A stretch of DNA of 64,000 bases. It comes from Clytia hemisphaerica (lineage: Eukaryota; Cnidaria; Hydrozoa; Leptothecata; Clytiidae). Under the pieces are notes generated by a model. The model searched no databases. It was not told the DNA's origin and saw only the letters and a list, made by a program, of their open reading frames with translations. The position numbers and the translations under genes are program-made. This document shows, piece by piece, positions 7,457 through 46,241 of the stretch (position 1 is its first letter; each line of letters opens with the position of its first letter). The stretch is from assembly GCA_902728285.1 (NCBI GenBank), contig CACVBU010000743.1:715068-779067 (forward strand), in the 5' to 3' direction.

Positions 7457-7465
7457 AGTCAGTTA

Positions 7466-7809: not shown

Positions 7810-7811
7810 TA

Positions 7812-8464: not shown

Positions 8465-8466
8465 TC

Positions 8467-11500: not shown

Positions 11501-11504
11501 TCGA

Positions 11505-13965: not shown

Positions 13966-13969
13966 ATTC

Positions 13970-14929: not shown

Positions 14930-16115
14930 ATGGACAATCCCAAAGTTACATTTTCCAGTGGTAATCAAGATCGTTTGAATGAATCTAACGACGAGACGGT
15001 TGAGTTTGGTGGATTACCAGAAGACGTACAATGTAGCGGAACCATCGCTGAACTTACTAACCCAACTCTTGTTCAAGCTGTTATCTCTGGCAGTTCACTT
15101 GAAGATGGTGGATATTTAGAAAACAGTTCAAAAGGATCTACAAATAGACTCATTGATGGTGATGACTCCTCGAACCAAATTGGGAAAACAGCGGAATCAG
15201 CTAAAGTGATAGATCCAGATACACTCGATAGTAAAATTGAAGATTTCAATGTTTCAGTAGTTCAAGATAAGGTAAACGATCCAGGAAAACGCTTTGTTAG
15301 TAACCATGGTAATATTGCTGATGATACTGTTAGTAACCACGGTGATATTGCTGGTGATGCAGTTAGGAACCATGGTAATGATCTTACTGGTGAAGTCGAC
15401 CATAAGGCGTCTGATCTTCGAAATACAGACGAAACAACGGAAATTGAAAATGTTGGTGGTTGTAAAAACAGCCCAATTGACCGCCAAAGAAATTTTGAAC
15501 TGCCTGACCAATCTCTGGCAAAGGAAAGTGACTTTTTTATTCCTCCGAAGGATTATGATTACAATACCAAAAATGAAGTTCATTCGGAAGTCGCTGATGA
15601 TTTTTTAACAACTTTTCAAGAATCTCCCATGAAAGATGATTTCTGGTCAAATGATACGACGTTCAGATTTAATAACAGCTATAATGATGCTGAGATTGAA
15701 TCACCAGCAACGGCTGGGAGGAAATTAGGTTCTGTAGTCTATGACTTAAATACATCTGAGATTGAAAACACTGATGGTATTTCCATAGAAAGGCCGAACT
15801 TTACTTCTAATATTGGCGATGAAAAACATGGCTTTACAAACCTTGGTTATGTATCTGAACTCGATGAACCTGCTGGCATTTTGAGACAGTCTCAACCATA
15901 TTTCTTTCCTACTAAAACACCTTCTAATTCAATGAAATCACAATCAACTTCCAAAGAGATTCTACCTGCACCCATTGATGGAGATTTCTTCACCAGTAGA
16001 GAAAGCAAGCTACATCGAACTATCATTCTTCCATTACTGTTGATTTTTGTTCTACTTATTGCATCCACTATCACTATACTTATTATTAGAATTAAACTGG
16101 GTGAATCAAAGAAAG
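14930..16115 (+). CDS. aGPCR exon 1: cytoplasmic-type N-terminus and membrane anchor
   Basis: ATG 14930 is the first start after an in-frame stop at 14879. The first ~360 residues are polar, rich in Asn, Asp, Ser and Glu, with no signal peptide and no known domain. Residues ~122-155 hold a short repeat (VSNHGNIADD, VSNHGDIAGD, VRNHGNDLTG). A 24-residue hydrophobic segment (IILPLLLIFVLLIASTITIL) lies between basic flanks (LHR before, RIK after). It ends at GAAAG|GTGAGG, phase 1. It could be a separate type II protein, but the phase-1 junction to the mucin exon fits and the open frame beyond the donor is short. Confidence 0.75.
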
Positions 16116-19100
16116 GTGAGGTCCTATTGTTTTTGAAAACCCGCGAAGCTTCTGATTGGTCAAGCGCCGAAATTCTATTGTAATGTCACGTGACCTAGGT
16201 AGGATTTCCTTCCTAACCACGGCATACTTTTCAGCAAAAGTACGCCATCTAGCCTTTATAAATCTATTGGTGAGGTGTCCAAGATGGCAGATTACTTACG
16301 GTTCATTGATAATACGGAAATCAACCCTCTTTGTCGAAAATTCGAAACCCCTCTTCAGCCTCTTTTTGATAAATAGCATTTTCTCTTTGATTAAACCGTT
16401 CTTGTTCTCCCACCAGAGAACTATTAATTTCTGAATAATTCCTCCTCAGCTTCTTTTTGATATAGACAACAGTCCAAATTATGATATACAATAGACTCCC
16501 GGTTATTCGAAGCTCCAAGGGGGATAAGAATTTACTTCGAATAACCGGGAGTTCGAATGACTGAAGAATTCATTTCCCGCCAGATTTTCAACTTAACAAT
16601 AATAGGATGGCCTTTTCTGAAGTAATCGAGGTATTGTGGTTAAGTTGAGCGTAATAAACACAGAAATTGCTTTTTTCGGAGGAAAAAGGTGTTCTCACTC
16701 GATGATCTACCAAAAAGAAAAATTCGAATAACTGAGGGTGGTTTAGCCTATAATTGGCCCAAGGGAAATAGAAATCACTTCGAATAACTGAAAGTTCGAA
16801 TAACCGAGAGTATTTTTGCCTGAGTTGGGTAAGTAGATCCAAGGGGAACGCCATCTCACTTCGAATAACCGAACTATTTGAATTAGTGCAGGTTGGAATA
16901 ACCGGGAGTCTACTGTATATTATCACTTGGATATTCCAATAAAAATATTTCTTAGACCCTCAGTTGTTATTATTTGCGTTTGGGAAAATTGGAACTTAGA
17001 CCACTTAGCTATCATTTTGAATTAATGTTTTTTTCTCCCTTCTCCGAGCTATGGTCTGTTTCATTTGTACTTTTTTTCTCTTCTACTAAAAAAATCATCT
17101 ATCTATTTTCGAAAAAAAACTTTGAGATAACATTTTTCTTCATTTTCTTTGGATTTAGATTCTACCAACAACGAATTTGTGCAGGTGTTAAATTCAACAT
17201 ACATTCCAACAGACGTTCTATCACCCTCTTCAAAATGGCTCAACAATACAAACATCCTCTTACCTTCAACAAACATAGTATCGACTACCACTCAACAAAC
17301 ACAGTCCAATCAATATTTGACCGAATCACTTGAACCATCAACTCAGCTGCTTGTTAAAAAGTCAACACAATATTTTACGAATTTCAATTCGTTTCAATCC
17401 AGCATAATATCCGATACGCAATCCAACTTGGATATTAAGACAACAAAAATAGCAAAATCTTCGATTTCCGGTCAAGCTACAACAGCTATTGCAACTACTA
17501 CTTTACCAAGTCTTTCAGTTCAAAATTCACAATCTTCATTAGAGACTTCCCAAACATTTTCAATCACTGAACAATATTTATCCAAATCGTTTAGCAAGGG
17601 AACCGTATCAATTAGTCCTATAAAATCATCCTTTGTTAACGCTACAAGTATTACCGTGGCCGGTAATAGTAATTCTCTTGAATCACAAATGACATCAATG
17701 CATGTTCCACACGAAGAAGCCTCCCCTTCAACTGATTACCTGCTTCAAGCTACATTACCAAGTGAACATAAATCGATCTCATCATTTGCACCATCATCAT
17801 TACCGTACAGCAATTCTCTCTATTCATCTCAAGAACTATCAAAAACACTGGAATCTCCTTCCTCAATCGAATCTTCCCAAACAGAAAGCGACCAAACTTT
17901 ACCCTCGATGACTTTTAGCTCGCTACTGGAATTATCAACTGTAGAATCAAATCTACCATCATCACTTCATCTGTCATTATTATCTTCAACTTTATCTATC
18001 ACAAACTTGGAATCATCGTTTGAAAGCTTGCTCACACCCTCGTCAAGCATCGACCATACCAGCTTGATATCGTTAGCTAACAGCTTTCTATCGTCTTCAC
18101 CGTACATGGATCAAACCACAGTTCTACGAGCATTTTCAACAAACGTTTCACCAACACTTTCCCCATCGTCGATTCACTCTGTAATTCACGGTTCCAATCC
18201 ATTCACAACTGTATCAACAATCCATTCAACATTCCAAACATCCTACAAAGATCTCCCTATCGGTTCAACAAATAACCTAGTGGCATCAACTGCTATCTCA
18301 AATCCGGAATCTTCAATCGAAACACAAATAATTAAAGAAATTACTTCCAGTTCAAATTTACCAAACATGTCAACTAATCTCATTGAACCGACCAAAACCT
18401 CAATCACTATTTCAACCGAATACGAAAACGAAAGTGAAATTACAAATATATTATTAACAGATACCGTCAAAACAACTGCTCTTGGCAATTCAAGCTCATC
18501 ATTAAGATCTACATCAGTTTTAAATGCTGGTGAAGTCTCCAGTACGTGTACTACGTCTTCAATCCTCAGCAGTCGCCATGCCACAACTGTTTTGACAGAA
18601 ATGATGACAGAATCGAATTCTAATGTTTCTGAAACAGTCACAAACCGTATTTATCATAGTGAATCTGTATCACATTCGACAGAGCAACTTATTCGACCAA
18701 CCAGCACTGGCTATCAAATGTCATCCATTTTATCCAGTATTTCAACAGAGGAGCCAAATCTAGGTTAGGAAAACTATCATTTTTAAATTTAAACGATGGA
18801 AGTCTTGTCTCCACGTTTGTTCCTCTTAGATGAAGCTCATCTTAGAGTATATAATAGTCTAAAGATCTCTCAAATTTAACTTTTCTGGAATTTTTTAACC
18901 ATGCCTATTCATAGGTTGAATAGCAAGCAGACTTGTACCATCTTTATTCAATGTAACCTTTCGGCCACACTCAAGCTCAAAATTATGTTTTAATCAGGAG
19001 TTTTATTAGGCCTGGTAGAAGAGGGTCACCATTCGAAATCAAAGGACGAAATTTTATGGAACTTTATTACCATCTTCTTCACTATTTCAGATTGTGCCTA

Positions 19101-22100
19101 CAAACTTCAAATGAGCCTTATTGATTATTGTAGTAACTTAATGTACTTATGCGGCCACACCTAACTCAAAATTATGCTCTAACCAGTGCTATGAAATATG
19201 AGTTTCATTAGACCTGGTAGACGGGTCACCATTTGAAATCGGAGAGCGAAATCTACGAATCTATCGAACTACGGTTACAATTCTCGTATGATAATTCAAA
19301 CTTCTTCACTATTTCAGATTGTGACTACAGACTTGGAATCTACCGATCACCAGACAAAAGCTTTGTAACAATATGGAAAGATCAATCAACCAACCAGCTT
19401 CTCGTCACCAAAGGGAATCAAACAGGCTTGAATGGAACTTTTACCGACCGCTGTTCGAAATTCAGTTTCATATCAGATGGTGTTTATATATTTTTTGAAG
19501 ATAAATGTTCATTGAAACTGAAATCAGATAATGGAAACATGACCATTTATCAGAAGTTGGTGTGTTATAAAGGTAAAAAGAGACTTTATGAAGCCTTTGC
19601 AAGCTTGAAATTCACTGTTTGTACATTTTGAGGCGCAGTTGTGTAGTGGTCATCGTTCTTGACTTCCGTGCTGGAGGTCAGGGTTTGATTCCCACTCGGT
19701 GCTGCGATTCACTTGGCAAGTGAATGTACCTTGGCCCGGGTCAACCCATACCATGTGAGGGGAATAGGGTACCATCACTCTGATACAAGAGTATGGGGAG
19801 ATATGCTGGACATTGAGTGTGGTGTGGTGATGGTATTCATATGTTCGGTACCTGCGAGAATGCAAGGTTCTCCCGTACCGTGCGAGTATCATCATCGATA
19901 CAGCACGGATCTGATGTGTCGCGAGCACAGGTTAGGGCCCGGTTCGATGATATCGGAGGGTCAGCTTCTCTTCTCTTCTCTATACATTTTGTTTTATAAA
20001 CGACTCAAATTTTCGGCTCTGGTCTGGGGTTACCTTTTCTGAGAAATTTGCTTTGAGCGCACCTAGTATTATACGATATGCTTTTTGAGTCAAGGGGTAC
20101 CGTTTGCCATGGTTAGATAATCTAAAAAGCTTTTACTTTATGAGATAGTGGCAAAAGTTGGCTAATTTGAGCTTTCGAGTCTTAGTAACCTTCCTTAAGT
20201 GGATTGAATTTGGCGATTGGCCAAAATGAAATTTTTAATTTGGCAAATGATCAATTTTCTATAAATTGGTGGGGATTTAATTTTGCAAATGATCAATTTT
20301 CTATAAATTGGTGGGGATTTAATTTGGCAAATGATCAATTTTCTATAAATTTATGGGGATTTAATTTGGCAAATGATCAATTTTCTATAAATTGGTGGGG
20401 ATTTAATTTGGCAAATGATCAATTTTCTATAAATTGGTGGGGATTTAATTTGGCGGATGATCAATTTTCTATAAATTGGTGGGGATTTAATTTGGCAAAT
20501 GATCAATTTTCTATAAATTTATGGGGATTTAATTTGGCAAATGATCAATTTTCTATAAATTGGTGGGGATTTAATTTGGCAAATGATCAATTTTCTATAA
20601 ATTGGTGGGGATTTAATTTGGCGGATGATAAATTTTCTATAAATTGGTGGGGATTTAATTTGGCAAATGATCAATTTTCTATAAATTGGTGGGGATTTAA
20701 TTTGGCAAATGATCAATTTTCTATAAATTGGTGGGATTTAATTTGGCGGATGGGAAGGTTTAAGGCTTTTATAAATTAAAGATGACGTGGTATTTTACTA
20801 AAAAAATGCATATTATGTAAAGAACTTCTATCCTAAAAGATTCTGCTAGATTATGCGGGGATTTAATTAGACGTATTAAATTTTGCGAATGATCGATTTT
20901 TTAAATTTTGGAGGGGGTAATAGACCTTTACATAAATTACGTCACAAACATCACTTGCCTCGTTTTGAAATTATTGCCACGGTGATTAACCCCCCTGACT
21001 CCCAGCGGATTTTATTTAAACTACTTTCTTTTCATAAAAAATCATGTAATGCCTTAAGGGACATAATCATCATAGTAATTGTTTGAAAACGAGGCAAGTG
21101 ATGTTCGTGGCGTAATTTCTGAAAAGGTCTTTTTGGCGATTTGTATATGTAATCACATGATAACGAGTGTAATTTTCGAATTGTACGAGTTATTATGTGA
21201 TTACGAGCTAATCGCACAATGGCTTTCACTACTTTTTCCCAGTTAGGAAAGTAAATTACAGAAATTACACCGAGTTTTATATTTTTCTCTTCTCTTTATG
21301 TCTTTCTTTTATTGTTGTTTATTGATTTTCTTTCTCCACAAAATAAATTTCGAATTCAATTAAAACGTTCGATGTAAGAAAAAACATTAAAATCAATTTT
21401 GTAAACATTGGTGCGGCATTGGAGAGTGTGATTAACGATTAATTGCTTTCTACAGGATGCAATTAACGATTAATTGCTCCCTTTGAGGGCGTGCCAAATA
21501 AGAAAAAATAACCCATCGTGCGATTATTCCCAAAATTTACTAAATTTGCCAAATTTTTAATTCCCACCAAAATTAATCCATTTACATTTATTGTTGATTA
21601 TGAAAATGTGTATCATAATTTATAACGATTGTGATTGGCTTAAAAACAAACGAGAAGGATAATACGAATTTCTTTACATATATGTAATATGAAAATTTGT
21701 GTCTATATAGTTTATCGTGCAGATAATTAATTAAGCTATGGTGCACTGCTAGGTATTTTATTAACTAAAATTTGCCTTTAATCTATTTCTTTTTACAATT
21801 TTATTAAGATTCAACCGAGATGAACTGCACCAGTATAAACGGATTGTACACAGAAAATAACCTACTGGATTCACCAAAACAAATGTTGATACATTCTAAC
21901 CAAAGCAATAAATCCATCGAAGTTCTAACATCTTATGGCGATAACGAAATAATATTAGGGACCGGTTCGCTCGTACATAATTGCTTTGCTGTCTTGTTGG
22001 ACCAGCATACTCAACAAACTTTTTTCTTAGAAAGAAACCAGACGTCTTGTCAATTGATACTTCTGCAAAGCGAGATGTCAATAATGATCACGTACCAAGG

Positions 22101-37100: not shown

Positions 37101-40100
37101 ATCCCAATATATTGCCATAGATATTCTTTCACTTTTATTGTTATCAGTAGAAACATTTTGTCGCCAATATCGGTGATAAAATGCCGCATACCTCATGTTG
37201 GTTTTCAACTATGCTTTCTTCAGCCTTGAAAACTTTGCACGTTTGATAACTCACAGGATACAGATAGTCGCTCAATTCACGTAATGCAACCATCCCAGCT
37301 TGCACACAACGTTATTTCAACGTTCATCTAACGTTATATGGACGTTGTGAACGTTAGATAAACGTTGAAACAACGTTGTGTGCCAGCTGGGATTGAGTTT
37401 CAAGCCGAAGGCTAGAGAGGAATCTTCAATCTTTACCTGGCAAACAAAAATATGATGCCTTTAAATTTGCGCTGCATTTTGGTTGACAAATTGAATCTAT
37501 AACTTTCTTGTTTTCAAATTTTACTTTTTTCGAATTCTTGTAGTAAATGTTACTTCTAATGCAGCGTTTGTTTGAAAACCACCACGTGGGCCGCGCAACT
37601 TATGTAAGAAATAAGTGGTTCCATAAATCCTATTTAAGATTCCAACCTTATTAAAGGCAACTTTAAACCTTAACTTTAAACCTTTAATGTCTTGTTCGTT
37701 CTTTTCTATATACGCCTAACTGCAATGCATCATCAATATTTTCTAATAAAGCAAACATATTAAATATTTTTAAGCTGTCTTATGCTGTCCTTTAAAAACC
37801 TATCGTAACCGATTTGATGATATATTTTAGCGTTATAGTAATGTGGGAGGGGGAGTGCCTACTTCGCAACATTAGAAAAGAACAACAAATTTAAAAAAGG
37901 ACTACAAATTTCACCATCCACAACCCCAACCAAAGTGTGTGTTACACCTTTACGTATTCATTCCTCTTTGTGTTTTGCGTATAATAACGACTAACAGTTT
38001 ATAAAAATAAAAGATTTACGCGTGCGCTTTAACTTTGTTTTGAAAATGAAACAATAAATGTGAAGTAGTGGAGTACTCAACTTTCTAAACAAAGAAAATG
38101 ACTTTTTTTCTATAGACATCTAATTGCAATGGATCATCTACATCGCCAACAAATACAACCACAATTTGTCCAACACCTTTCGAAGTCACCACACATCTTC
38201 TCAACATTCTAAACAACAACACCATCAAGATTGAACAAGACGTTGAATTCATCTCAGAAATCATTGATCATGTCATCCAACACATAAATGCTGACACTAA
38301 TATCACTGACGTTAGAAAGGTAACTTGAAATAATCATAGGCTGTGCGGCTAATGGGCTGGGATTTCAAAATCATCTATAGTCAACTCACTCTAGTTCGAA
38401 TCTTTGTTTAATTCGAAATAAGATACTGGTCCCCTTAGCTGAAAATTAGTTTAAATTAAATTACTCTCTAATTCGAAGAAAACTTTGGTCTCTTTAAGAT
38501 CGAATTAGAGAGAGACAACTGTATCTTCAAGACCGATGTCTTGAAATAATATGAAGAGTTTGTGAATAAGCCTCTTCTGTATTTCTTGCAATGGTTGATT
38601 AAACTTAAGCATATTTTTCCCGCTAAGATGATTTTTAGGGGTAGGTCTCACCGTTGCCCGAGGGCCACTTATAGCTTTTTGATAGACTGTATACCCTGAT
38701 AAGTGATCCGGTGTAATTTGGCTGACTCGATATTTTGGCTTTGCTTGAGGTGGTAGCAAATCCATGCCACTAGATTCAGTCCCTTTTTGGAGAAAAGCAA
38801 ACAGAAAACCATGACCAATTTATAGAACATATTTTATTGTGTTGTTGTTTTCTTATAATTTTGAAAACGGAAGTGAAAAAATTCAAGATGGCGCGATACC
38901 TCTACTGCTACTTCACTGGACTCAGCGCCATCAAAATCATCAGAAAGCAAAGTTCAGTCAGAAGTAGACTCTAATCTAGTCCCACTGGGGCTCTGCTATG
39001 GGGTTGTAGCAAAAATTATTCCGTATTTTCAACTTTTTCAGATCACCACAAACCTATTGAAAATCGTCAACCAAGTCATGGACATCGATATCCAATTGCT
39101 TCAACAATCACAAAACAAGTCAAGCACTACAGAAAACATCCTTCTGAACCTTGATACACTTGCTCTCAAAATTGGTGAAATCATTCGGCAATACCCTAAT
39201 ATGGAAATTGCGATTAATTTCGAGAATATTGCCTTCATTATTGGGTACAAGCTACCTAACAACTTATTGATCAGTAGTAATCAATCAAGTAATGGCCAAC
39301 CATCCTTAACTTTAAGTCAAAATACTACTAGCAATAATGAAGATTCAAGTGTGGCCAGTTTTTATTCTGGTGCAAACACATTCATGGATAATGAAGATTC
39401 CTTGGTGTATTCCTATTTGTTCAACAAACCAACGCTTTTCAAAACAAAACAATACCAAGCAGGACGGGTAAGCTCGATTTCCGTAATCTCTTTTTCGTAC
39501 ACAGTGAACCAATTAAACAAGGAATTTCCTTACTTGAAAGATTACTTGAAATTGTTCTTTTCTCAATATTGAGACCACCCATCTCATTGAGATGAGTCCC
39601 TCTTATTCCCAAAAAAATGATTTCTCATTAAAATCTGAATTCATGGAAATTGATAATGATGTTCTCTATCCATTTTGGGACTCACCTATGTACCAATCAC
39701 GCGTTCACACTTATTTAGTCAACATGCAATAATCCTGCAGCTTTGAAAGTCGAGTCACGGTCGTTGCAGATCTATCTTTCGTCCTACCTCTCTGAAAGGA
39801 ACCAACCGAATCTATCTATTGTTATTTTACGTTCAAAGTTTATCTGGCACCCAGATGGTGAAATTTTCATCCGACACGCTAAAGCTGTGAAAGTCGGGAA
39901 AAGTTCCAACATCTGGAAGGTGTAGATAGCGGTATTTTTTTATCAGACTGCGTAAAGGATTTTCCACTGAAAAATCCTCTCGTTTCAGGGATTTTGGGGT
40001 AACAAAATATTCTCAACCTTACGGGCAAGAGTCCTTGAGCCCGACTGGGGATTTATCTGATATTCCGATGGCGGATTGGCGGCTGCCCACGCTAAAGCTC

Positions 40101-43100
40101 TAAAGGAGCGCGCCAATTTCCCATCGGAGAGGAATGATAGTCGGCCTTTGATGTGTCGCCTCCCCAGTCGGGTTTGACTACCCTTGGGTGTAAAGGTAAA
40201 AATATTTTGATTGGACCCGCCAATCCCCGAAAACGAGGGCTGGGTTACCAGATCTCCTGTTGTAAAATCCTTGACGCGGTCTTGCAAAATTCCGTAATGT
40301 AAACCTTCCAGATGATGAAAATTTTCCCGATCTTCAGAGCTTTAGCGTGTCGGATGAAAATTTCACCATCTGGGTGCCAGATAAACTGGGGATATGACAT
40401 ATCAAAGGGCGACCGACTTTCATTCCTCTTCGATGCAAATCGCCCCGCCTCTTTAGAGCTTTAGCGAAGGCGGCCGCCAATCCGCCATAGGAATATCAGA
40501 TAAGTTTGAAGGGAATAATGGGTAATCTGGACTGTTTGTGCCCCGATAACTGCCTCCCATTTGTTAACTGTAAAACCTCAACAGATTTAGATCAAAAGTC
40601 GTTATCTGAGCACGAGGTTTTTGTTTTTAACAAAATCTTCTTTAGGTTGGTTATGTTGGTAGTCCAGTATTAGCAGTCACCATTTCAAACAATGAAACCA
40701 TTGCACAGAATCAATCCATCGAATTGAGCTTTGTTGTTCCACCAAACTTCTTGAAGAATATGACGAATGAAAAAGTGGAAGAATTATGCTGCTTCTGGAA
40801 TTTCACCACAGGTTTAGTAAATATTTCTCGCATGTTTTCAACCATAAAAAGCCAAGCTTGCGAGCCTGATGCAGTGGTAGACACTTGCTTATTAAAAAAC
40901 AAGAGTTTGAAATTTCAATTATATGTTAAGATAAATCCGTGAGATTTAAATCAAATTTGTTTTCCGGTAGTATTTATCTGAGTTTTTTTGACCAACGACT
41001 CTTTTTGAGATGAAATTCTAAAGTACTTAATGCCTAACAGGATCAGATTGGAAGTTAAACGCTAATCCAGGGAGGCCCAAGGAGCAGGATTAAAATCACG
41101 AGAGTGAAAAAAGGTTGTAGTTAGATATAACATTTAACAAAAATGATTAAAATCTTACGCCCTTTCGTACGCTTTCTTTTAGACACTTGGTCTAATTACG
41201 GATGCCACAAAGTTGATAGGCCATCAAATCGTGATGACGTCATCACGTGTCGATGTAACCATCTTACGAACTTTGCGGTTCTTCTTGATGTCGAGCAAGG
41301 TTTGTTTATTTACAGCGGTGGCCCCTTCGAAAGCATACCTGACGAAAATTGTTGATTACAGCTGGCAAAAAAGTTTTAAAGGCTTTTTATTGAATGAGTT
41401 TTACAAAATGCTACAATATCTTGAGAATCAATGCAAATTTGGTCAGCACTCTAGTGGTCCACCATAGTTAATTAGGAAAATAATTAGTGAAACTCGAACC
41501 CAGTGTTTTTTGTTGAAAATTTTTATTTTACTAATAATGGCACCACAATTTACCATTGCCGTACTATAGATAGATAAAGTCGATCTTTTCCGTGGATAGC
41601 TCAGTAATCTAGGACGGTGTCAGCATGCTCGGCTATCTAAGGTGCATGGATTCGAACCGCGAAACTCTGGTTTTGGGCGTTGACTCCTTTGACCACTCTG
41701 CCATTACTCCTTATAACTAAGATTACAAATGTCATATTTCAGGTGTGGTATACAACCCTCTTGCATTACAATATGTTTCAATCATTGGTTGCTGGATATC
41801 GATTACTGGGCTTGTCATAACCATTGTCTGTCATCTGGTGTTTAGGTATGAAACATTTCCAACAAATTAAAAATGTGTGAATACAGTCGACGCTCTCTTA
41901 TTCAATTTTCAAGGGGATTGGGCTCATAGATTTACAAAGCCCGAAGAGCTAGATGTCGTGCTTTGGCTGAAAAGTGTGCTGTGGTTAGGTAGGTCACGTC
42001 TACCTACAATCCTTCAAGAAATATTTGAGACAAATGGGAAATTCCCCAGGAAGTTTTGAAACCAAAATCAATTTGTAAGTGCTCTAAAGTAGGTTCGAAA
42101 GGTAGAGTTTTAACTCTGAGTTTTAACGCTAGACGTAACACTTAGGACCTTAGGATTTGAGGATCTAAAAGTTCAAAAATGGTCCAGTAAGGCTCCGAAT
42201 ATAGCCTGGAAGTCTGCCTACCCGTCTCAAATTGAAATGTTCGATTAAATTAAAAGGAATAGCCCAAAATCGGCTTTTTCGCCCGAACTTTAAATCTCGA
42301 AAAACGTCAAAATAACCGGAATTCTCAATATATTTCTTGAAAGATTGTAGATCACGTGACATTACAATTAAATTTCAGCGCTTGACCAATAAGAAGCTTC
42401 GCAGGTTTTCGAAAACAATAGTAGAAATACTTTTTGCGATATTCACTTTTTTTGTTGAAAGAGCTTAAAGCACGACATCTAGCCCTTCGGGCTTTACAGA
42501 AATCTGTGATTGGACTTTCATCGAATACCTAAAAAAGAGGCATTTTTAGCATTATTTGGCAATGAAATGCGTACCGATGGTATTCGAATACCTAATTTGA
42601 TTTCAATTGAGGTATTTTGGACATAAATTGAGATAAAAAGCTGAGTTGCTAGGCATTTTCGGCTCAAATTCCATTTGCAACTGCAAGCTGGAATCCGGAA
42701 AATCCTTAGCAACTCCAGCCACTAGCTGAAAATTGGAGATGCTTATAAAAAAATGTGTTGTAAGTTGAAAAGGCTTGCATAAAGACGATATTTTGAAAAT
42801 TGGTCCAATTATCTTACCCTATAGACTTTTACTCTTTACCTAATTGTATTTTAAAGTACATTTAGAGTCCAACCAAAAAATAAAATAGTTAAAAACAAAA
42901 TCTCTGTTAGCTAGCCTCTTCACTGTCTCTTCGCATTTCAAACATTACCCACTACAGGGTGTCCCTAATTAAAGTATCGAGTTTGAACATGCGATTGAGT
43001 AGAAAAGTTTGTGTGTGTTATCGCTAAAATATAAGAACGTTCTCCATCACAGAGGCTTATTACAAAAGGTAGTTACAACGTATAAATTAATCGTAATGAC

Positions 43101-46100
43101 AAAGAAAAAAGAGGGAGAGCTTAAAATACAATTTTGTAAACACGCACATAAAACTTTCTACTCAATCGCATGTTCAAACTCGATACTTTAATTAGGGACA
43201 CCCTGTATAACATAATAGTCATTATAAAAAACCCCGGTCGGCGGTCTGGCTTTCTGTTCAATTTTCTTTTGTTGCAAACAAAAGGCAAGTTGCGATTTGC
43301 ATACTTTTTGATCACCTTACCAAAATCTCCTCTTGGGATTGGTCTATTTTCCAATCACATAATAAAAAAGTTTGCAAAATAAATCGATTTTGGTACGTAG
43401 GCTCCACCTTTTAACAATAAAAAGAGACAAAAGCCTTCCAGACCAGTGTTTTTATAATGACTTTGATAACATGAATACTCAATGATTTTTCCACAGAAAG
43501 GTGATGCGAAAACTGCCACCAAAGATTTTGATCAACCTCTGCGTTTCAATACTTGCTTTGCTTTTGGTATTTCTATTCGGTGTCGACCAATCAACGTCCT
43601 CGTCTCGAATCACGTGTCAAATCATGGCTGCACTTCTTCATTATTTCACGTTAACTACATTCTGTTGGACCCTGGTTGAAGCGTACAATCTGTATAAAAA
43701 CTTTGTCAAAATATTCAATATGGGTGGATCGAATAAGAAATTCATGTATTTCGCAATGTCCTTTGCATGGGGTATGTTCTTATTTAGTTCTTTTTCTTGT
43801 TTTTTTATATAGCTCTGTTACTCCAAGGTTTCAGGTCCGATCCATTGGCTTTAGCGTTCAGAACTGCCCTATATTTGCAGATTTTGAATATAGGACAGCT
43901 GTTTTTCATACCAAACATTCGCAATAGAATTAGAAAATCATGATACGAAACACGAGATAAGTTTGAAAGAAATCTTATCCAAATCTTTGCTATAATTCGA
44001 AGAAAATTTTTGGTCTCTTGAAGATCGAATTAGCAAATTAGCTATACGTCTTTTAATCTGAAATGATTTGCTTCTCTCAGGTTTTCCATTGCTAATTGTT
44101 GGCATCTCAAGTTCAGTTGCACCTCAAAATCTGGGAAGCAAAGATTTGTAAGTACAGTTGACGCTCTCTAATTCGACGTTCTACTATTCGATAGGCTCCC
44201 TTATTCGATGAAATTTATGATCCCCGTCAACAAAAAACTCCCATAAACGACGCTCCCTTATTTGATAAGCTCCCTTATTCGATGAAAATCCAATTCCCCT
44301 TGAAGATCGAATTAGAGAGCGTCAACTGTATTGTAATTAGTCCTGTTTGAAAGTTATGTTATTTCATCATTAAGTTGTGGCCCACCTCCTTAGTTCCGAA
44401 CATGTTTTTAAACCCACTGCTCCCTTCTTCGTCCTTCTTTAACATTAGAATATAATTATTGCTATCCTGCTATGAAGTGCTTTATTTTGCTCTTCTATAC
44501 CGCTTTGCACTTATCTTTCAGAAGTTTTCTGCAACTGTTTCTTCTAGATATCTTACTATACTAAATGAGTTTATGAAAAATGTCTGTAACGCTAGCCCAG
44601 TAACATATGTTAAGGTTTCTAAAATTTGAACGCTGCGGCTGGAAAACCTATCCACCTTCGATACAAAAAGTCTCGCGCTAAGTTTGACAAGCGTAGAAAA
44701 CTCGGATTAGAGAAGACTCTACACTGCTATTTGTAAAACTTTTTCAAAGGAAAAGAAATACATTAGAATAAATATAAATATTATAAGACTAAATCAGTTA
44801 AAAACGAATAATAAGAGGCAAACAAATCAAGTATCACAAATCCACATCATAAGGATAGTGGCATAACCTTGCGGTCACGCCGGGCGCAAAACAAGGGCTA
44901 TTTGTAAACGAAAAAAGTTCTGACGTCAATTTCATGAAAAAGTACTGCGACGTCATAAAGTTTCAAATAAAAAGATGTGGCATTTTTGTTGCACGATTTC
45001 GAATTATTTTATATCAACACACGCAACAAAATCCAACATTGTTGTTTGATGATTAAACTTCGTCTAACATTATTTAAAAAGGTTTCAATGTTGGTTGCAT
45101 TGCATATGCGCCAGTCTTAAGCTGTCCGCATGCGAAGCCAACAAACGGGAAAACCTTCAGTGCTCAATCGCAAAGCGCGAGCCTCTCCTTCACAACTAAG
45201 GCTTTTTCTTTCCTAGAAGCAACCCTCTCACCACCTCAGACACCTTTGGGCGTCTGCAACGACGGGTACCCTCGATAATTTTGACAGGGTCACTATGGCA
45301 TTTCATTGAACACAAACTTCCGTTATCTTAAAAAGACATATCATCGAGGCTTACAGACACAAAATTTTGACTAATGTAGAAAGTTTAGAAGTATATTTTT
45401 TATTATGTATTTGGCATTTTAAGCCAAAACGATGTCAGGAATTAACCCACATTATAGTATTTTAAAGGCTTTTGATGCGCAAGCAAAACCGTTAACCGGC
45501 GTTTACGACGACGGGAACCGTCTAGTAAACTGCTAATTAATTTTTTGAAACGTTTTATGAGGAAGGGCGATTAGCAACTTTTCGTGTTTCAGTTTGGTTA
45601 AAATGTTTCGAGTGGCCCCAGCCATAAAGCAAATCAATGTTGAATCTGATTGGATTCAATTTTTTAAACTAAAGATGTTTCACACATCTTAATTATTCTA
45701 CATTTTTGTCATTTTTTAGTTGTGTGGTCATTGGCAATACCTTGTACATCGGCCTGTTAGCGCCAATCGCTCTCATCCTTCTCATCAACTATTTCGCCTT
45801 TGGATTCATTCTCAAATCGATTACGTCACGAAAAGTGGTTGCCAATAGTAACAAAACACAACAAAAAGACGAACTTCAACGTCAGTTACGATCTGCCTTC
45901 ACCATAGCAACGTTATTAGGAATGACGTGGATTTTCGCCATTTTGGCAATCGGTGACGTCAAAGAGACATTCCAATGGCTATTCAGTATCTCAACCTCTC
46001 TACAAGGATTTTGCATCTTTGTCTTGTATACTGTCAGGAATCCAGAAATACAGAATGAATTTTACCAATGTTTGGGTGTGGAGAGAAACAATAAGAAACA

Positions 46101-46197
46101 TAGCACCGCATCCTCAGCCGAATTAGCACCCATGCGTAACCGGAACCATTCAACCAGCTTTTTCAGCCGTGGTACAACAAGAAAGACCACCTTATAA
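14930..46197 (+). CDS. Adhesion GPCR, 20 exons, mucin-Ig-SEA-GAIN-7TM
   Basis: This entry spans the spliced gene; exons are listed separately. Summed coding length is 6711 nt (2236 residues), with phase kept at all 19 junctions. Predicted order: N-terminal cytoplasmic-type region 1-360, membrane anchor ~364-387, mucin stalk 397-930, four-Cys modules in 931-1224, Ig-like 1225-1435, SEA 1436-1548 with GSVIV at 1495-1499, HormR-like 1549-1625, GAIN 1626-1929 with HLT at 1917-1919, 7TM from ~1932, tail ending KTTL. By family knowledge, GAIN self-cleaves at HL|T and the exposed TNFAVLL-type segment is the tethered agonist. SEA plus Ig upstream of GAIN recalls the vertebrate ADGRF group, but I do not claim orthology. 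The extra N-terminal anchor instead of a signal peptide is odd and would make eight membrane passes. Two minus-strand genes sit in its introns. Confidence 0.85.
16116..16205 (-). mobile_element. Repeat fragment directly after the exon 1 donor
   Basis: AAACCCGCGAAGCTTCTGAT to ATGTCACGTGACC matches the reverse complement of about 42345-42435, which is inside the 41925-42508 element. The match begins only a few bases after the splice donor. It extends the exon's open frame beyond the donor to 16183. Confidence 0.65.
16488..16915 (+). mobile_element. pogo/Tigger-like element (ACTCCCGGTTATTCGAA ends)
   Basis: The left end AGACTCCCGGTTATTCGAA and right end GGAATAACCGGGAGTCTACTG are inverted. The interior has many TTCGAATAAC words. 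The right end reads CTACTG|TA, as expected for a TA target. It is non-coding. Such ends are typical of pogo/Tigger non-autonomous elements. Confidence 0.8.
17159..18763 (+). CDS. aGPCR exon 2: mucin-like Ser/Thr stalk
   Basis: The acceptor is tttggatttag and the exon spans 1605 nt, phase 1 to phase 1. It encodes 535 residues dominated by Ser and Thr with scattered Pro and Leu and almost no Cys, typical of a heavily O-glycosylated extracellular stalk. Several N-glycosylation sequons occur (for example NST, NTN, NVS). No exact repeat unit is visible. The donor is TAG|GTTAGG, a slightly weak site. Being one symmetrical phase-1 exon, it could be skipped without breaking the frame. Confidence 0.8.
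19010..19130 (+). pseudogene. Ghost copy of the exon 3 start
   Basis: This stretch and 19200-19340 are diverged direct duplicates: GGCCTGGTAGA/GACCTGGTAGA, GGTCACCATT, then the same CTTCTTCACTATTTCAGATTGTG. The acceptor and first ~25 bases of exon 3 are thus copied at 19080-19112, after which the reading stops matching. The downstream copy (19318) carries the full open exon. Confidence 0.75.
19318..19572 (+). CDS. aGPCR exon 3: four-Cys module 1
   Basis: Acceptor cactatttcag, donor AAAG|GTAAAA, 255 nt, phase 1 to 1. The module opens with CDYRLGIY, has internal DRC and DKCSLKL, and ends LVCYKG. Exons 4 and 6 repeat the pattern C-x4-G-[ILF]-Y, then C, then C-x-[LF]-x-L, then C-x(1,2)-G. The module is not one I recognise; it should be extracellular and disulfide-bonded. 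Several N-linked sites are present (NQT, NGT, NMT). Confidence 0.75.
19632..19982 (+). mobile_element. tRNA-derived SINE, copy 2
   Basis: Same head and body as the SINE at 7046, with A-box-like TTGTGTAGTGG and B-box-like GGTTTGATTCC. It is flanked by TACATTTTG on both sides (target duplication), lies about 60 bp into the intron after exon 3, and is shorter at the 3' end than copy 1. Open frames on both strands here are SINE sequence. Confidence 0.9.
20230..20750 (+). repeat. 42-bp minisatellite, 12 units, intronic
   Basis: Units of TTTAATTTGGCAAATGATCA plus TTTTCTATAAATTGGTGGGG repeat head to tail. Because 42 is a multiple of three, the plus frame stays open over 191 codons (NLANDQFSINWWGF units) and a minus frame is also open. 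Units 3-6 and 7-10 share a four-unit super-pattern (an LWG unit, two WWG units, then a LAD unit), about 168 bp. A decayed unit sits at about 20850-20920. No splice sites fit, so I treat it as non-coding. Confidence 0.9.
20926..21130. mobile_element. TIR element, CATCACTTGCCTCG family
   Basis: The left end ATTACGTCACAAACATCACTTGCCTCGTTTTGAAA and the right end, its near-inverse finishing at GGCGTAATTTCTGAAAAGG, enclose about 200 bp. The same ends border the array at 3408-4130 and the copy at 27365-27540. Confidence 0.75.
21809..22114 (+). CDS. aGPCR exon 4: four-Cys module 2
   Basis: Acceptor ttttattaag, donor CACG|GTAAAA, 306 nt, phase 1 to 1. Shows CTSINGLY, then HNC, SCQLIL and a terminal DCHG, in register with modules 1 and 3. 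It carries several NxS/T sequons (NCT, NQS, NKS, NQT), in keeping with an extracellular place. Confidence 0.8.
22361..22662 (+). repeat. 87-bp tandem repeat, about 3.5 units
   Basis: GAGACGAACC starts units at 22361, 22448, 22535 and 22622, exactly 87 bp apart. Each unit contains GAGACGTCTGAGACG, itself a short palindrome-rich word, and the units differ at only a few positions. The last unit is cut short. It is intronic, between exons 4 and 5. Confidence 0.93.
22803..22838 (+). CDS. aGPCR exon 5: 36-nt microexon
   Basis: A strong acceptor (ttcttttattttctag) and a consensus donor (GAAC|GTAAGT) enclose exactly 36 nt, which reads open in phase 1 to 1 as DKVNNTQGMLSE plus a split codon. It links modules 2 and 3 without shifting frame. 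It could be alternatively used. Evidence is splice-site quality and phase only. Confidence 0.55.
23224..23508 (+). CDS. aGPCR exon 6: four-Cys module 3
   Basis: Acceptor caatcttttcag, donor CGTG|GTAAGT, 285 nt, phase 1 to 1. Shows CPDMFGFY, LGCQL, ACLFIL and LECNRG, matching modules 1 and 2. Confidence 0.8.
23720..24286. mobile_element. TIR element, CTTATCGGCCAAAACTTAG family, split by a younger MITE
   Basis: The left end TCTTATCGGCCAAAACTTAG and right end CTAAGTTTTGGCCGATAAGG are inverted with TA on both sides. The interior repeats GGCCGACTAA and GTGACTAAATTTTG words. The element at 23749-24106 is inserted about 29 bp in from its left end. Confidence 0.8.
23749..24106 (+). mobile_element. 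TIR element, CTCTTGTCTCCC family, copy 2
   Basis: TIRs CTCTTTTGTCTCCCGAATAGACG and its near-inverse, flanked by TA. The interior is the reverse complement of copy 1 at 7466-7809, with G tracts in place of C tracts. Confidence 0.9.
24290..24856. other. No gene seen (intron)
   Basis: AT-rich intron DNA between a transposon and the 3' end of the nested SET gene. Confidence 0.45.
24857..26960 (-). pseudogene. TPR/SET-domain protein gene, intronless, one frameshift
   Basis: Two overlapping minus-strand frames form one protein. The upstream part (26960-25929) has a domain with GVTTFIEDDYGDFVQIALYN, GTRLRIAEPYYKIFTDGKYG and IRVD, which I know from TPR/SET-domain proteins common in fungi and protists, then a TPR. 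The downstream part (25948-24857) adds TPR helices and a SET domain: GRGLIATADIKPGTFLIV, LFNNDEKPNC and GEELALCYG. The NHSC-type motif has become NNDEKPN, while the late SET tyrosine remains. They join only by a +1 shift in a ~20-nt overlap; TAG directly precedes ATG 25948. The usual start is ATG 26960, since upstream codons lack an ATG. It lies antisense in aGPCR intron 6 and may be a retrocopy. It could be a sequence error rather than a dead gene. Confidence 0.7.
26765..26820 (-). repeat. In-frame 15-bp repeat in the SET-domain gene
   Basis: Three near-identical 15-bp units encode a repeated SDSNT peptide, a length-variable spot inside the N-terminal part of the protein. Confidence 0.85.
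27365..27540. mobile_element. TIR element, CATCACTTGCCTCG family, diverged
   Basis: The right end TTGAAAACGAGGTAAGCG and GTGACTTAATTCATGAAAAGG match the right ends at 20926-21130 and in the 3408-4130 array. The left end (CGATTGCCTAGTTTTGAACC) is more diverged. Confidence 0.6.
27691..28011 (+). CDS. aGPCR exon 7: Ig-like domain 1
   Basis: Acceptor cttattttttag, donor CCTG|GTAAGT, 321 nt, phase 1 to 1. The Ig hallmark is YNDTGLYQC (D-x-G-x-Y-x-C of strand F), with the partner Cys in GFCSF about 60 residues earlier. The usual Trp of strand C is not obvious, so it is a divergent Ig fold. Confidence 0.85.
28377..28688 (+). CDS. aGPCR exon 8: Ig-like domain 2
   Basis: Acceptor gcttttcag, donor CAAG|GTTGGT (weak at +3 to +6), 312 nt, phase 1 to 1. 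The strand F motif is YSDQGYYQC; the early Cys is in LHGCSI. Again one whole domain in one symmetrical exon. Confidence 0.85.
29212..29324 (+). CDS. aGPCR exon 9: SEA domain, first part
   Basis: Acceptor ccccctttttta|g, donor GATACC|GTAAGT, phase 1 to 0. VEVRFVDFQYNPAYGDRQS followed by EFKAIEKEILDT fits the first strand and helix of a SEA domain. Confidence 0.8.
29334..29616 (+). mobile_element. CACCCCCTTCTCACAG-type TIR element, copy 1
   Basis: The ends CCCCCTTCTCACAGACCC and GGGTCTGTGAGAAGGGGG are inverted. The interior is rich in TCCCCACTG words. It begins only about 10 bp inside the intron, right after exon 9's donor. The donor hexamer GTAAGT recurs shortly after the right end (29620-29626), perhaps as part of a target duplication. 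Copies 2 and 3 are at 49504 and 57110. Confidence 0.85.
29905..30145 (+). mobile_element. Dispersed repeat, GTCCGTTACAGTGATAG family, copy 1
   Basis: GTCCGTTACAGTGATAGCAA through CTCTACCGACTGTAAACTC to TTAGATAGTGATTTGTCTTAG and the palindromic ACTATAGCATAGTCTAGG. It recurs inverted at 54195-54435 and direct at 54990-55215. Confidence 0.75.
30242..30300 (+). CDS. aGPCR exon 10: SEA domain, middle part
   Basis: Acceptor tttttgtttcag, donor ATCAG|GTAATT, 59 nt, phase 0 to 2. It encodes MSSALDINNTASKIQIINI plus a split Arg, fitting the helix-turn-strand of SEA. Its last 11 bases and the splice donor are part of a perfect 32-bp inverted repeat (30290-30321 with 30339-30370). Confidence 0.75.
30290..30370. 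repeat. Perfect 32-bp inverted repeat spanning a splice donor
   Basis: The left arm 30290-30321 (last 11 bases of exon 10 plus 21 intron bases) pairs fully with the right arm 30339-30370; the loop is 17 nt. In RNA this would bury the 5' splice site in a strong hairpin. Confidence 0.95.
30651..30817 (+). CDS. aGPCR exon 11: SEA domain end with self-cleavage site
   Basis: Acceptor cgtttctttacag, donor CCTAG|GTAAGA, 167 nt, phase 2 to 1. It opens RPGSVIVDLQIL: GSVIV corresponds to the GSVVV site where SEA domains (as in MUC1) cleave themselves between Gly and Ser. A ~45-residue polar linker follows, with one Cys and NQT as a sequon. Confidence 0.85.
31132..32127. mobile_element. About 1-kb TIR element with internal repeats
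   Basis: TTATTTCCTCCTGACCGCAAAA at the left and TTTTTGCGGTCAGGAGGAAATAA at the right are near-perfect inverted ends. Inside are about three degenerate direct repeats (TTTTCCTTATA..., AAACATTATT..., ATTTTCATTGGA). The longest frames are about 110 codons without a domain. It is non-autonomous and lies in aGPCR intron 11. Confidence 0.75.
32315..34238 (-). CDS. Lysine-rich coiled-coil protein, two exons
   Basis: Exon 1 runs 34238 to 33513 (242 codons, donor GCGAG|GTAATT) and exon 2 runs 33025 to 32315 (236 codons and stop, acceptor aaacttcag); phase 0 joins them, 478 residues. Residues ~10-175 are a long heptad-like coiled coil rich in Lys, Glu and Leu (MDIMNAQEVMELVQ start). Exon 2 is basic and low in complexity, with three ~22-residue repeats around LGKKAPRATKEND. 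There is no signal peptide and no known domain. A minus-strand AATAAA lies about 115 nt past the stop (32202-32197). It sits antisense in aGPCR intron 11, and its own intron holds a decayed CCCGGGG-type element. The function is unknown; a cytoskeletal or scaffold role is only a guess. Confidence 0.8.
33083..33326 (+). mobile_element. Decayed CCCGGGGG-family element
   Basis: AGTGGGTTTACCAACTGACGG, GTATGTGCGG and CTTACAGTGCAGCG match the interior of the copy at 52176-52516, and a C tract ends it near 33304-33319. The terminal G tract on the left is lost. It fills most of the coiled-coil gene's intron. Confidence 0.65.
35085..35678 (+). mobile_element. LINE (non-LTR retrotransposon) ORF2 C-terminal remnant
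   Basis: An open frame of ~197 codons reads like the region after reverse transcriptase in CR1/Jockey-type LINEs: LTWEKHASLARQRAYLGLNK, LVNAMVYSHL, and the typical end YNATNIWNSLPTDLRQ then TFKSKAKSYFF. The catalytic part is absent, so it is 5' truncated. It lies in aGPCR intron 11, same strand. Intact reading suggests a fairly young insertion. Confidence 0.8.
35899..36128 (+). CDS. aGPCR exon 12: HormR-like cysteine module
   Basis: Acceptor cctttcttatag, donor ACCAAG|GTAATT, 230 nt, phase 1 to 0. A pair of Cys at the start (DCCQPN), then YTYNHTL, NKTCAYQS, IGRKCKG, a GPSWQEV Trp and EPC follow the W-T-C-RxC-W-C order of hormone-receptor (HormR) modules that precede GAIN in many adhesion GPCRs. 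Confidence 0.75.
36150..36425 (+). mobile_element. Decayed CCCGGGGG-family element (intron 12)
   Basis: CCCGGTGGTACGAGGGC at the left and CATACCCGCAGCACC at the right, with interior ACCCTTAAAGAGA and CCCTTAAAAAGAC words, match the copy at 48128. Confidence 0.55.
36450..37790 (+). repeat. Tandem duplication (about 0.65 kb x 2) with ghost exon 13 starts
   Basis: Marker words recur about 0.66-0.75 kb apart: TCAGTAGAAACATTTT, GCCGCATTTTGGTTGACA, TAAATGTTACTTCTAAT and GGGCCGCGCAACTTATGTA. Each copy ends in TTTTCTATATACGCCTAA followed by CAATGCATCA, a decayed version of the real exon 13 acceptor and start (TTTTCTATAGACATCTAATTG). The second copy is interrupted by the element at 37294-37391. Confidence 0.75.
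37294..37391. mobile_element. ACAACGTT palindromic element
   Basis: CCCAGCTTGCACACAACGTT and its near-inverse ending GTGCCAGCTGGG enclose repeats of AACGTT/ACGTTGAAAC words. AT flanks both ends. The first duplicate at 36450 lacks it, so it is an empty site. Part of a similar element is at about 63000-63090. Confidence 0.85.
38116..38319 (+). CDS. aGPCR exon 13: GAIN domain, helical part
   Basis: Acceptor ctttttttctatag, donor AGAAAG|GTAACT, 204 nt, phase 0 to 0. It starts with a Thr/Ser/Cys-rich linker, then an amphipathic helix (FEVTTHLLNILNN, VEFISEIIDHVIQHI) as in GAIN subdomain A. Confidence 0.75.
38379..38522. mobile_element. pogo/Tigger-like element
   Basis: Left TAGTCAACTCACTCTAGTTCGAA and right TTAGAGAGAGACAACTGTA are inverted. 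AATTCGAA words fill the interior. Intron 13. Confidence 0.75.
39042..39467 (+). CDS. aGPCR exon 14: GAIN domain, helices to strands
   Basis: Acceptor caactttttcag, donor GGACGG|GTAAGC, 426 nt, phase 0 to 0. Helix (ITTNLLKIVNQVM), then ENIAFIIGYKL and a Ser/Asn-rich insert, then SLVYSYLFNKPTLF as GAIN-B begins. The frame stays open past the donor to 39572 by chance. Confidence 0.75.
39740..40502. mobile_element. Composite TIR element, GGCGGATTGGCGG family
   Basis: ATCTGATATTCCGATGGCGG at about 40051 and CCGCCATAGGAATATCAGAT ending at about 40502 are inverted ends with TA outside each. A second inverted pair of about 48 bp lies at 39838-39887 and 40340-40389 (CTGGCACCCAGATGGTGAAA). Related fragments are at 5258-5910. 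Intron 14. Confidence 0.75.
40646..40811 (+). CDS. aGPCR exon 15: GAIN-B and first GPS cysteines
   Basis: Acceptor aatcttctttag, donor CACAG|GTTTAG, 166 nt, phase 0 to 1. PVLAVTISN and IELSFVVPP are GAIN-B strands; LCCFWNFTT is the standard GPS opening (C-x-FW-x-F). Confidence 0.85.
41183..41299 (+). CDS. aGPCR exon 16: GPS cleavage motif
   Basis: Acceptor gctttcttttag, donor CAAG|GTTTGT, 117 nt, phase 1 to 1. WSNYGCHKV, then CRCNHLTNFAVLLDV: the four GPS cysteines with those of exon 15 and the HL|T cleavage triad. TNFAVLL would be the tethered agonist. Confidence 0.93.
41591..41690. mobile_element. tRNA-like sequence, probable SINE head
   Basis: The plus strand shows TAGCTCAGTAATCTAGGA (A-box-like) and GGATTCGAACC (B-box-like). 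The minus strand shows ATGGCAGAGTGGTC and GGTTCGAATCC, like a tRNA-Leu/Ser head. A clean acceptor stem is not seen on either strand, so a functional tRNA is unlikely. Intron 16. Confidence 0.4.
41743..41845 (+). CDS. aGPCR exon 17: TM1
   Basis: Acceptor catatttcag, donor GTTTAG|GTATGA, 103 nt, phase 1 to 2. YVSIIGCWISITGLVITIVC is TM1. Confidence 0.9.
41925..42508. mobile_element. About 580-bp TIR element (ACAAAGCCCGAAG ends)
   Basis: TTACAAAGCCCGAAGAGCTAG and CTAGCCCTTCGGGCTTTACA are inverted ends, followed inward by GATGTCGTGCTTTG and its inverse. The interior matches 11505-11910 and 16116-16205 in inverse orientation. Just upstream (about 41880-41920) is a pogo-like left end fragment. Intron 17. 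Confidence 0.75.
42955..43205. mobile_element. Mariner-like MITE, CAGGGTGTCCC ends
   Basis: About 52-bp inverted ends (CAGGGTGTCCCTAATTAAAG, CGAGTTTGAACATGCGATTG, AGTAGAAA) with TA duplicated outside. CAGGGTGTCCC is a common mariner-superfamily end. It is 251 bp, non-coding, in intron 17. Confidence 0.9.
43497..43771 (+). CDS. aGPCR exon 18: TM2, TM3 and start of TM4
   Basis: Acceptor tttttccacag, donor ATGGG|GTATGT, 275 nt, phase 2 to 1. ILINLCVSILALLLVFLFGV is TM2; ITCQIMAALLHYFTLTTFCW plus LVEAYNLY is TM3 with the conserved Cys and the family's W-LVE-x-x-LY signature; FMYFAMSFAWG starts TM4. Confidence 0.93.
44081..44147 (+). CDS. aGPCR exon 19: TM4 end and ECL2
   Basis: Acceptor gcttctctcag, donor GATTT|GTAAGT, 67 nt, phase 1 to 2. 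FPLLIVGISSSVAP completes TM4. Confidence 0.88.
44155..44328. mobile_element. pogo/Tigger-like MITE 7 bp inside intron 19
   Basis: CAGTTGACGCTCTCTAATTCGA and TCGAATTAGAGAGCGTCAACTG are inverted ends with TA outside. The donor GTAAGTA just precedes it, its last TA being the target site. 174 bp, non-coding. Confidence 0.93.
44330..45719. other. Intron 19, no further gene
   Basis: After the MITE I see only AT-rich intron DNA without exons. Confidence 0.45.
45720..46197 (+). CDS. aGPCR exon 20: TM5-TM7 and tail
   Basis: Acceptor cattttttag, stop TAA 46195-46197. CVVIGNTLYI carries the ECL2 Cys, IGLLAPIALILLINYFAFGF is TM5, FTIATLLGMTWIFAIL is TM6 with the GMTWIF signature, and SLQGFCIFVLYTVRNPEIQN is TM7. 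The ~50-residue tail is basic and ends KTTL, a class I PDZ-type ligand. A donor-like GGTAAG follows the stop at 46211, so a 3' UTR intron is possible. Confidence 0.93.
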
Positions 46198-46241
46198 TGA
46201 TATGAAAGTTGGTAAGTTTTTTTTGCTGCTTAAAGTATCTA

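Follow-up and report, generated by a model that had tools for sequence, protein, structure and literature searches.

The jellyfish Clytia hemisphaerica appears to have an adhesion G-protein coupled receptor (GPCR) gene with a membrane anchor encoded in its first exon. We consider it probable that this receptor is made without a signal peptide, that the exon 1 helix is a type II signal anchor, and that the ectodomain is consequently fixed at both ends. The gene occupies 20 exons between positions 14930 and 46197 of the window, our term for the whole 64 kb stretch of DNA analysed (from contig C517 of the 417 Mb genome). All introns are bounded by GT-AG (19/19), with consistent phases, and the exon chain encodes a single frame of 2236 residues with its sole stop at 46197. 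From the N to the C terminus, the predicted order is a 364-residue head, the anchor, a Ser/Thr-rich stalk, three Cys modules, two Ig-like domains, a SEA domain, a Cys-rich domain, the GPS and the seven-helix (7TM) domain. We conclude that the anatomy of an anchored adhesion GPCR gene is real, and we infer a continuous transcript from exon 1 to the 7TM domain. The features of the gene are as follows.

14930-16115, plus strand: exon 1, ending in phase 1
14930-16021, plus strand: exon 1 head, residues 1-364, predicted cytosolic (residues 115-364 are in UniProt A0A7M5WJ87; residues 1-114 and the start codon are predicted from the open reading frame)
16022-16087, plus strand: putative membrane (signal) anchor, residues 365-386, from hydropathy
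16115-17159, plus strand: intron 1 (16116-17158) plus the exon base on either side; joins in phase 1, with a donor scoring 7.3; junction present in A0A7M5WJ87
17159-18763, plus strand: exon 2, starting in phase 1; mucin-like stalk, Ser/Thr-rich (38%), residues 396-930, the first 13 of exon 2 being in A0A7M5WJ87
19318-19572, 21809-22114, 22803-22838 and 23224-23508, plus strand: exons 3-6; three divergent Cys modules and a 12-codon linker exon
27691-28011 and 28377-28688, plus strand: exons 7-8; two Ig-like domains, the first assigned by eye and the second by Pfam V-set
29212-29324, 30242-30300 and 30651-30817, plus strand: exons 9-11; SEA domain, from Pfam
35899-36128, plus strand: exon 12; Cys-rich, occupying the position of a hormone-receptor domain, conserved in paralogues
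38116-38319, 39042-39467 and 40646-40811, plus strand: exons 13-15; GAIN region, from paralogue matches, and from 39078 onwards in NCBI protein P0122
41183-41299, plus strand: exon 16; GPS, CRCNHL/TNF, with the predicted cut (slash) between residues 1918 and 1919
41743-41845, 43497-43771, 44081-44147 and 45720-46197, plus strand: exons 17-20; seven-helix domain and C-terminal tail, from P0122 and Pfam 7tm_2

Exon 1 encodes a polar head and a hydrophobic anchor

The Met at 14930 is the first in its frame, and further Met follow at codons 234 and 335. The open reading frame (ORF) runs from stop to stop between 14882 and 16183 (433 codons, or 417 counted from that Met). When the whole window was shuffled 30 times in dinucleotide blocks, the longest plus-strand ORF starting with ATG had 163 codons, and the mean was 110. 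Hence, the exon 1 ORF is not a product of chance. The encoded head is acidic and mostly polar; residues 1-363 comprise 18% D+E, 9% K+R and 18% S+T, with two Cys. Within it, a 33-nt unit occurs three times (15295-15393). The head matched no Pfam family. Searched against the genome at E up to 0.01, exon 1 matched itself and nothing else, and thus has no paralogue at this threshold. Among database proteins of about 217-691 amino acids, the sole match to exon 1 was a 100%-identical Clytia record, A0A7M5WJ87, and the head had no other relative.

A sequence-only reading of this DNA had claimed that exon 1 encodes some 360 polar residues, with no signal peptide, and then a single hydrophobic anchor. 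Both claims stand. In a hydropathy scan of the model, exon 1 contained no signal peptide, and the first hydrophobic segment appeared only at residue 365. This segment, residues 365-386, has a best 19-residue mean hydropathy of 2.88, the highest of the eight stretches listed in the protein. The gene thus lacks the cleaved N-terminal signal peptide that is usual, if not universal, in adhesion GPCRs. It has one helix N-terminal to the ectodomain and no signal peptide, as in an eight-helix adhesion GPCR of the ADGRG7 type.

The orientation of the anchor bears directly on the proposed topology. Charges flanking the anchor are near neutral, with net values on the N and C sides of 0 versus +1 (15 residues) or +2 versus +2 (10 residues). 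These do not favour an inside N terminus and are the weakest point of the topology. Note that the Cys modules, SEA domain and GPS belong outside the cell. Therefore, the N-terminal side of the anchor must be inside the cell and its C-terminal side outside. We also counted N-glycosylation sites, per 100 residues, and compared them with expectation from composition. The head is near expectation (1.9 versus 1.5), while the Cys modules (3.4 versus 1.6) and the part from SEA to GPS (3.0 versus 1.9) are above it. The stalk is below (1.5 versus 2.4), which carries no weight either way.

Public protein records support both ends of the gene

The donor of exon 1 scores 7.3, the best of the 19 donors. 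UniProt A0A7M5WJ87 (P0121), a Clytia protein of 294 amino acids, equals model residues 115-408 with 100% identity. It spans the predicted junction of exons 1 and 2 exactly and then continues for 13 residues of exon 2. We conclude that splicing of exon 1 to exon 2 is supported. Hence, the phase 1 join between exon 1 and the mucin stalk, previously proposed from phase, is now borne out by a public record. Since both ends of this record lie inside exons, it has the look of a fragment assembled from RNA rather than of an ab initio prediction. In the Clytia genome paper, gene models are said to come from assembled RNA reads. XLOC/TCONS names occur in PMC10620158. The start of the record, at 15272, follows an AG, so an upstream splice there is possible.

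The same record bears on the idea that exon 1 is a single-exon gene, unrelated to the receptor, that reads to the stop at 16183. The frame does stay open for 22 codons beyond the donor, but A0A7M5WJ87 leaves exon 1 exactly at that donor and enters exon 2. This contradicts a single-exon gene, and we find the idea scarcely credible. Exon 1 ending in its own 3' UTR, an outcome that the sequence-only reading had named as fatal to itself, was not seen; the public record splices on.

At the other end of the gene, NCBI Clytia protein P0122 ("adhesion G-protein coupled receptor G2-like") agrees with the model at 531/531 residues, beginning at Met 1706 (exon 14) and ending at the stop. This confirms exons 14-20. 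Starting as it does at an internal Met, P0122 may represent a separate unit. Note that there is no Met between model residues 1474 and 1706. Hence, the start of P0122 says little about where the transcript begins, and the record may be incomplete. In the databases searched, we found no record for residues 1-114, nor for residues 409-1705, which include all joins between exons 2 and 14. A query with residues 1200-2236, against proteins of about 1230-3913 amino acids, found no further Clytia record among the best 120 of 1729 matches, where an identical protein would rank top. Similarly, none was found with residues 1100-1802 against proteins of about 387-1230 amino acids, for which the 7999 candidates with most common words were scored. 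Both queries would miss models built of exons 2-6 only.

The joins of exons 3-13 rest on frame, phase and splice sites and, for exons 8-13, also on paralogues. All eight joins from exon 1 through exon 9 are in phase 1. The donors of exons 2-13 score between 0.8 and 6.8, thus no lower than the donors of exons 14-19 (-2.7 to 6.7), for which there is record support. The locus could instead hold two genes. In that case, exons 1 to about 6 would encode a mucin-like type II membrane protein of their own, and the GPCR would begin further down, with its own start. The public records are split in a manner consistent with this, A0A7M5WJ87 containing parts of exons 1-2 and the NCBI record beginning in exon 14. 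Furthermore, introns of the model hold coding sequence on the minus strand (a SET-domain gene in intron 6 and two long ORFs in intron 11). However, frame and phases are continuous, with no stop and no terminal exon, and A0A7M5WJ87 just breaks off 13 residues into exon 2. In addition, paralogues have Ig, SEA and Cys domains upstream of their GAIN-7TM part. The sole signal-peptide-like match between exons 3 and 7, at 19803 in intron 3, was rejected as part of a repeat, its translation also being found at 7061-7402. We therefore judge two genes unlikely, and favour one gene that runs from exon 1 to the 7TM domain.

The introns contain other features. The SET-domain gene (24857-27059, minus strand) scores 50.4 bits with Pfam SET and is SMYD-like by eye. 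Its frame changes near 25930-25948, so there must be an intron or a break at this point. The two minus-strand ORFs of intron 11 (32315-34247) have 273 and 270 codons, stop to stop. Neither matched a Pfam family and one is coiled-coil-like by eye. A 72-nt tandem repeat lies at 32626-32815 in the same intron. Tandem arrays also occur in intron 3 (20234-20747; 42-nt unit, 12.3 copies) and intron 4 (22352-22656; 87-nt unit, 3.5 copies).

Two candidate cleavage sites lie between the stalk and the seven helices

The three Cys modules are encoded by exons 3, 4 and 6. Identity to the first is 25% for the second and 24% for the third, and the three look like copies of one kind. They gave no sensible Pfam match and no PDB match. 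The second Ig-like domain scores 25.1 bits with Pfam V-set, just below the cut-off of 26. The SEA domain passes its Pfam cut-off (31.0 bits against 26.4) and holds the sequence GSVIV, with G1495-S1496, which we take to be the site of SEA self-cleavage (motif G/S[VI]xV, cut at the slash). For exon 12, there was no Pfam match. A general search of NCBIfam gave nothing useful.

Pfam GAIN did not match the model at E up to 1. A GAIN region is suggested by paralogues, which match over exons 13-15, and P0122 aligns by sequence to solved chains of ADGRG6 (from residue 18 of P0122) and ADGRG2. The GPS scores 41.3 bits (Pfam cut-off 22.5) and contains H1917, L1918 and T1919, in agreement with the pattern H-x-S/T. 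Cleavage motifs of SEA domains and of the GPS are both known. Given G-S-V-I-V in the former and H-L-T in the latter, both cuts are plausible. For the seven-helix domain, 7tm_2 scores 142.3 bits on P0122 (cut-off 20.6), as expected of an adhesion (class B2) GPCR. The closest solved chain to P0122 is ADGRG2, among the best 60 of 96. Named vertebrate matches, among the best 120 of 1729, were ADGRG6, ADGRG2 and ADGRL1-3, with a few unnamed. ADGRG7 was neither among these vertebrate matches (best 120 of 1729) nor among the solved chains (best 60 of 96).

Across the genome, 102 matches to 7tm_2 exceed the family cut-off, with exons of one gene counted separately. For a jellyfish, this makes a large set of secretin/adhesion receptors. 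Towards the 3' end of exon 20 (46100-46212), another frame, VVQQERPPYNDMKV by eye, runs past the stop to a GTAAGT and ends in PPYNDMKV. This could be an alternative tail or chance. The frame ending in PPYNDMKV was not found in the paralogue loci examined.

Paralogues share the receptor part of the gene

Paralogous loci on contigs C435, C285 and C398 have the order Ig, SEA, Cys domain, GAIN, 7TM, where Ig and SEA were assigned by eye. Since they keep this order, exons 8-13 of the present gene are tied to its 7TM part. Upstream DNA was read over 20 kb in two loci (C435 and C285) and over 10 kb in two others (C751 and C398). We scanned the upstream pieces of C435, C285 and C751 for signal-peptide exons in phase 1. 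There was one match, in C435, and none on the minus strand.

C435:1087666-1087702 (locus L039): plausible signal-peptide mini-exon, phase 1, with a counterpart in L037 (C751)

The C435 match reads MISYVLVVFGLA, with a hydrophobic core of 2.67 and a donor score of 3.1. The stretch in C751 has the same shape and donor; because C435 and C751 share 93% identity in this region, it is not independent of C435. The 5' ends of C285 (20 kb upstream) and C398 (10 kb upstream) were not found. Given the plausible signal-peptide exon in C435 and C751, the anchor would be special to the present gene, having taken the place of a signal peptide there. C435 and C751 are near-identical paralogues that also have C-type-lectin-like exons and long Asn/Thr-rich repeats.

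More distant homologues were also considered. Hydra vulgaris LOC105845287 (P0001) is 40% identical over 33% of the searched part. Its single hydrophobic segment, near residues 40-58, scores 2.48 and comes after a second Met at 41; it could be a signal peptide or a short anchor. Among the best 120 of 1729 matches, from residue 100 to about 700 residues before the C terminus, the highest mean hydropathy was 1.94. The exception was P0076 (2.82 at residue 895), whose segments we interpret as its 7TM domain.

Two further loci drew our attention. At C398:248401-258400 (L038), an Ig-like unit of about 1.14 kb is repeated in near-unchanged tandem, giving five ORFs of 327 codons each, together with two that are partial. 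At C782:261780-261917 (L026), there is an isolated copy of the end of exon 11, from the SEA domain, with 76% protein identity and a frame that runs past the donor position. It looks like a moved genomic piece.

A candidate alternative first exon lies within a repeat

We scanned the window for signal-peptide exons that could replace exon 1. Upstream of exon 3, none was found in phase 1, either with strict settings (4000-22000; minus-strand control 0) or with looser settings (from 8000, before 19318). Hence, a signal-peptide first exon spliced to 17159, a second outcome that would have spoken against the sequence-only reading, did not emerge. Note that the scan can miss such exons, since its hydrophobic-core test passes 75/108 homologues that start with Met. 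Between 8000 and 39000, there were three matches on the plus strand and three on the minus strand, or three versus six with looser settings. Two of the three plus-strand matches begin at the same place, 32027.

32027-32072, plus strand: candidate alternative first exon in intron 11, signal-peptide-like, MTDFFIFILALLSSS, with a phase 1 donor that fits exon 12

If this exon were used, the working receptor might consist of a signal peptide, the Cys domain, GAIN, GPS and 7TM, with the exon 1 form as a side product or alternative. The candidate has a hydrophobic core of 3.4, a donor score of 7.1 and the right phase. In addition, variant 1 of ADGRG7 is a shorter form with a signal peptide, made from an intronic promoter, according to PMC11039983, and plausible signal-peptide mini-exons occur in C435 and C751. 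By analogy, 32027-32072 could give a short unanchored form such as ADGRG7 has. However, the candidate sits in a transposon-like repeat (31130-32127) with 34-nt inverted ends. This repeat has 1799 candidate places genome-wide, of which 40 were scored, and all 40 matched.

The copies allow the candidate to be judged. Of the 39 other scored matches, 19 copies were examined, and the start codon is missing in every one, which makes the frame seem private to the intron 11 copy; the donor letters are kept in 18/19. A private frame might signal use, but private changes are common in this copy. Outside 32027-32072, it differs from at least 80% of aligned copies at 23/562 covered positions, in a comparison that took the longest match per copy; 32027-32072 itself was compared only in the 19 other copies. 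Chance is therefore enough to explain the candidate. Furthermore, scan matches were no commoner on the plus than on the minus strand. No transcript containing 32027-32072, or linking the C435 mini-exon to receptor exons, was seen. We conclude that 32027-32072 is at chance level. It is possible that a transposon has supplied a first exon here, but a working receptor that starts from it is improbable.

A model for a receptor fixed at both ends

We return to the receptor that starts with exon 1. From the anatomy we infer its topology, its two cleavages, how it would respond to force and what the head might do. Acting as a type II signal anchor, the exon 1 helix would keep the head, of up to 364 residues, in the cytosol. 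The stalk through the GPS would be threaded outside, ahead of the 7TM domain. Being anchored in front, with the 7TM domain behind, the outer part would form a loop held by the membrane at either end. The SEA and GAIN domains would each probably cut themselves, with the halves staying together non-covalently. Three chains are thus predicted. The first would comprise the head, anchor, stalk, modules, Ig domains and N-terminal half of SEA, the second would run from the C-terminal half of SEA through the Cys domain to GAIN, and the third would be the tethered agonist with the 7TM domain.

The sequence-only reading had proposed that, after cleavage, the released ends would still be held by the first anchor. 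For the largest fragment this stands. It does not hold for the piece between SEA and GPS, which would be held by non-covalent contacts with its neighbours only. Force on the stalk or Ig part would load the anchor in parallel with two breakable joints, and opening of the joints would expose the agonist to the 7TM domain. The large fragment, with its anchor and head, would remain on its own cell, where the cytosolic head may hold or signal.

Most models of adhesion GPCR activation have the outer fragment leave or be pulled away. With an outer fragment that is tethered to the same membrane, force can have different effects, and the fragment acquires a cytosolic part of its own. Clytia, as a laboratory animal, makes such a receptor accessible to experiment. 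In its fullest form, our proposal is of a twice-cut receptor, fixed at two ends, whose anchor diverts force past the joints in SEA and GAIN. The head would be a second signalling or cytoskeletal arm, kept with the outer fragment after the 7TM domain is triggered, and the arrangement would have arisen independently of vertebrate ADGRG7. We put this forward tentatively and, taken whole, it is doubtful.

Comparison with known systems

Several known proteins share parts of this layout. ADGRF5/GPR116, ADGRF1 and ADGRG6 have Ig and/or SEA domains followed by GAIN, GPS and 7TM, and so may also be cleaved twice. The Clytia gene resembles them in this respect, but they start with a signal peptide, where the Clytia gene has an anchor, and their SEA-side fragment is not known to be anchored. 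The TMPRSS11 proteases are type II SEA proteins, with a cytosolic N terminus, a signal anchor and the SEA domain outside. Unlike the Clytia receptor, they are proteases and are not known to have GAIN, GPS or 7TM domains. To our knowledge, ADGRG7 has no SEA domain, Ig pair, mucin-like stalk or set of three Cys modules, whereas the Clytia gene has all of these and belongs to another phylum. A separate origin seems likely.

ADGRG7 is nevertheless the closest precedent. PMC11039983 reports ADGRG7/GPR128, in 2024, as the first eight-helix GPCR, with both termini shown by tags, in COS-7 cells, to be cytosolic. The most abundant form is described there as lacking a signal peptide and having an extra helix N-terminal to the ectodomain, such that the outer part is anchored at both ends. 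Since this has been published, such a topology is evidently made in cells. The sequence-only reading was correct that adhesion GPCRs usually have a signal peptide, but this is not universal, and the reading omitted the ADGRG7 precedent (PMC11039983). Among the matches listed in our literature search, with subscription journals mostly outside its coverage, ADGRG7 alone was found as an eight-helix adhesion GPCR. A survey of choanoflagellates kept sequences with six to eight helices, allowing for signal peptides and prediction errors (PMC12716839). Hence, such cases may hide in other sets.

Like ADGRG7, the Clytia gene has no signal peptide, a helix N-terminal to the ectodomain and, by prediction, a doubly anchored outer part. 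The helix of ADGRG7 is at the very N terminus, whereas that of Clytia is preceded by as many as 364 residues. Were the jellyfish receptor, with a head of this size, to be a second case, this would point to more than one origin of the design. We conclude that the doubly anchored adhesion GPCR is an idea already published for ADGRG7, to which the Clytia gene adds a longer head, a stalk, a SEA domain and a new phylum.
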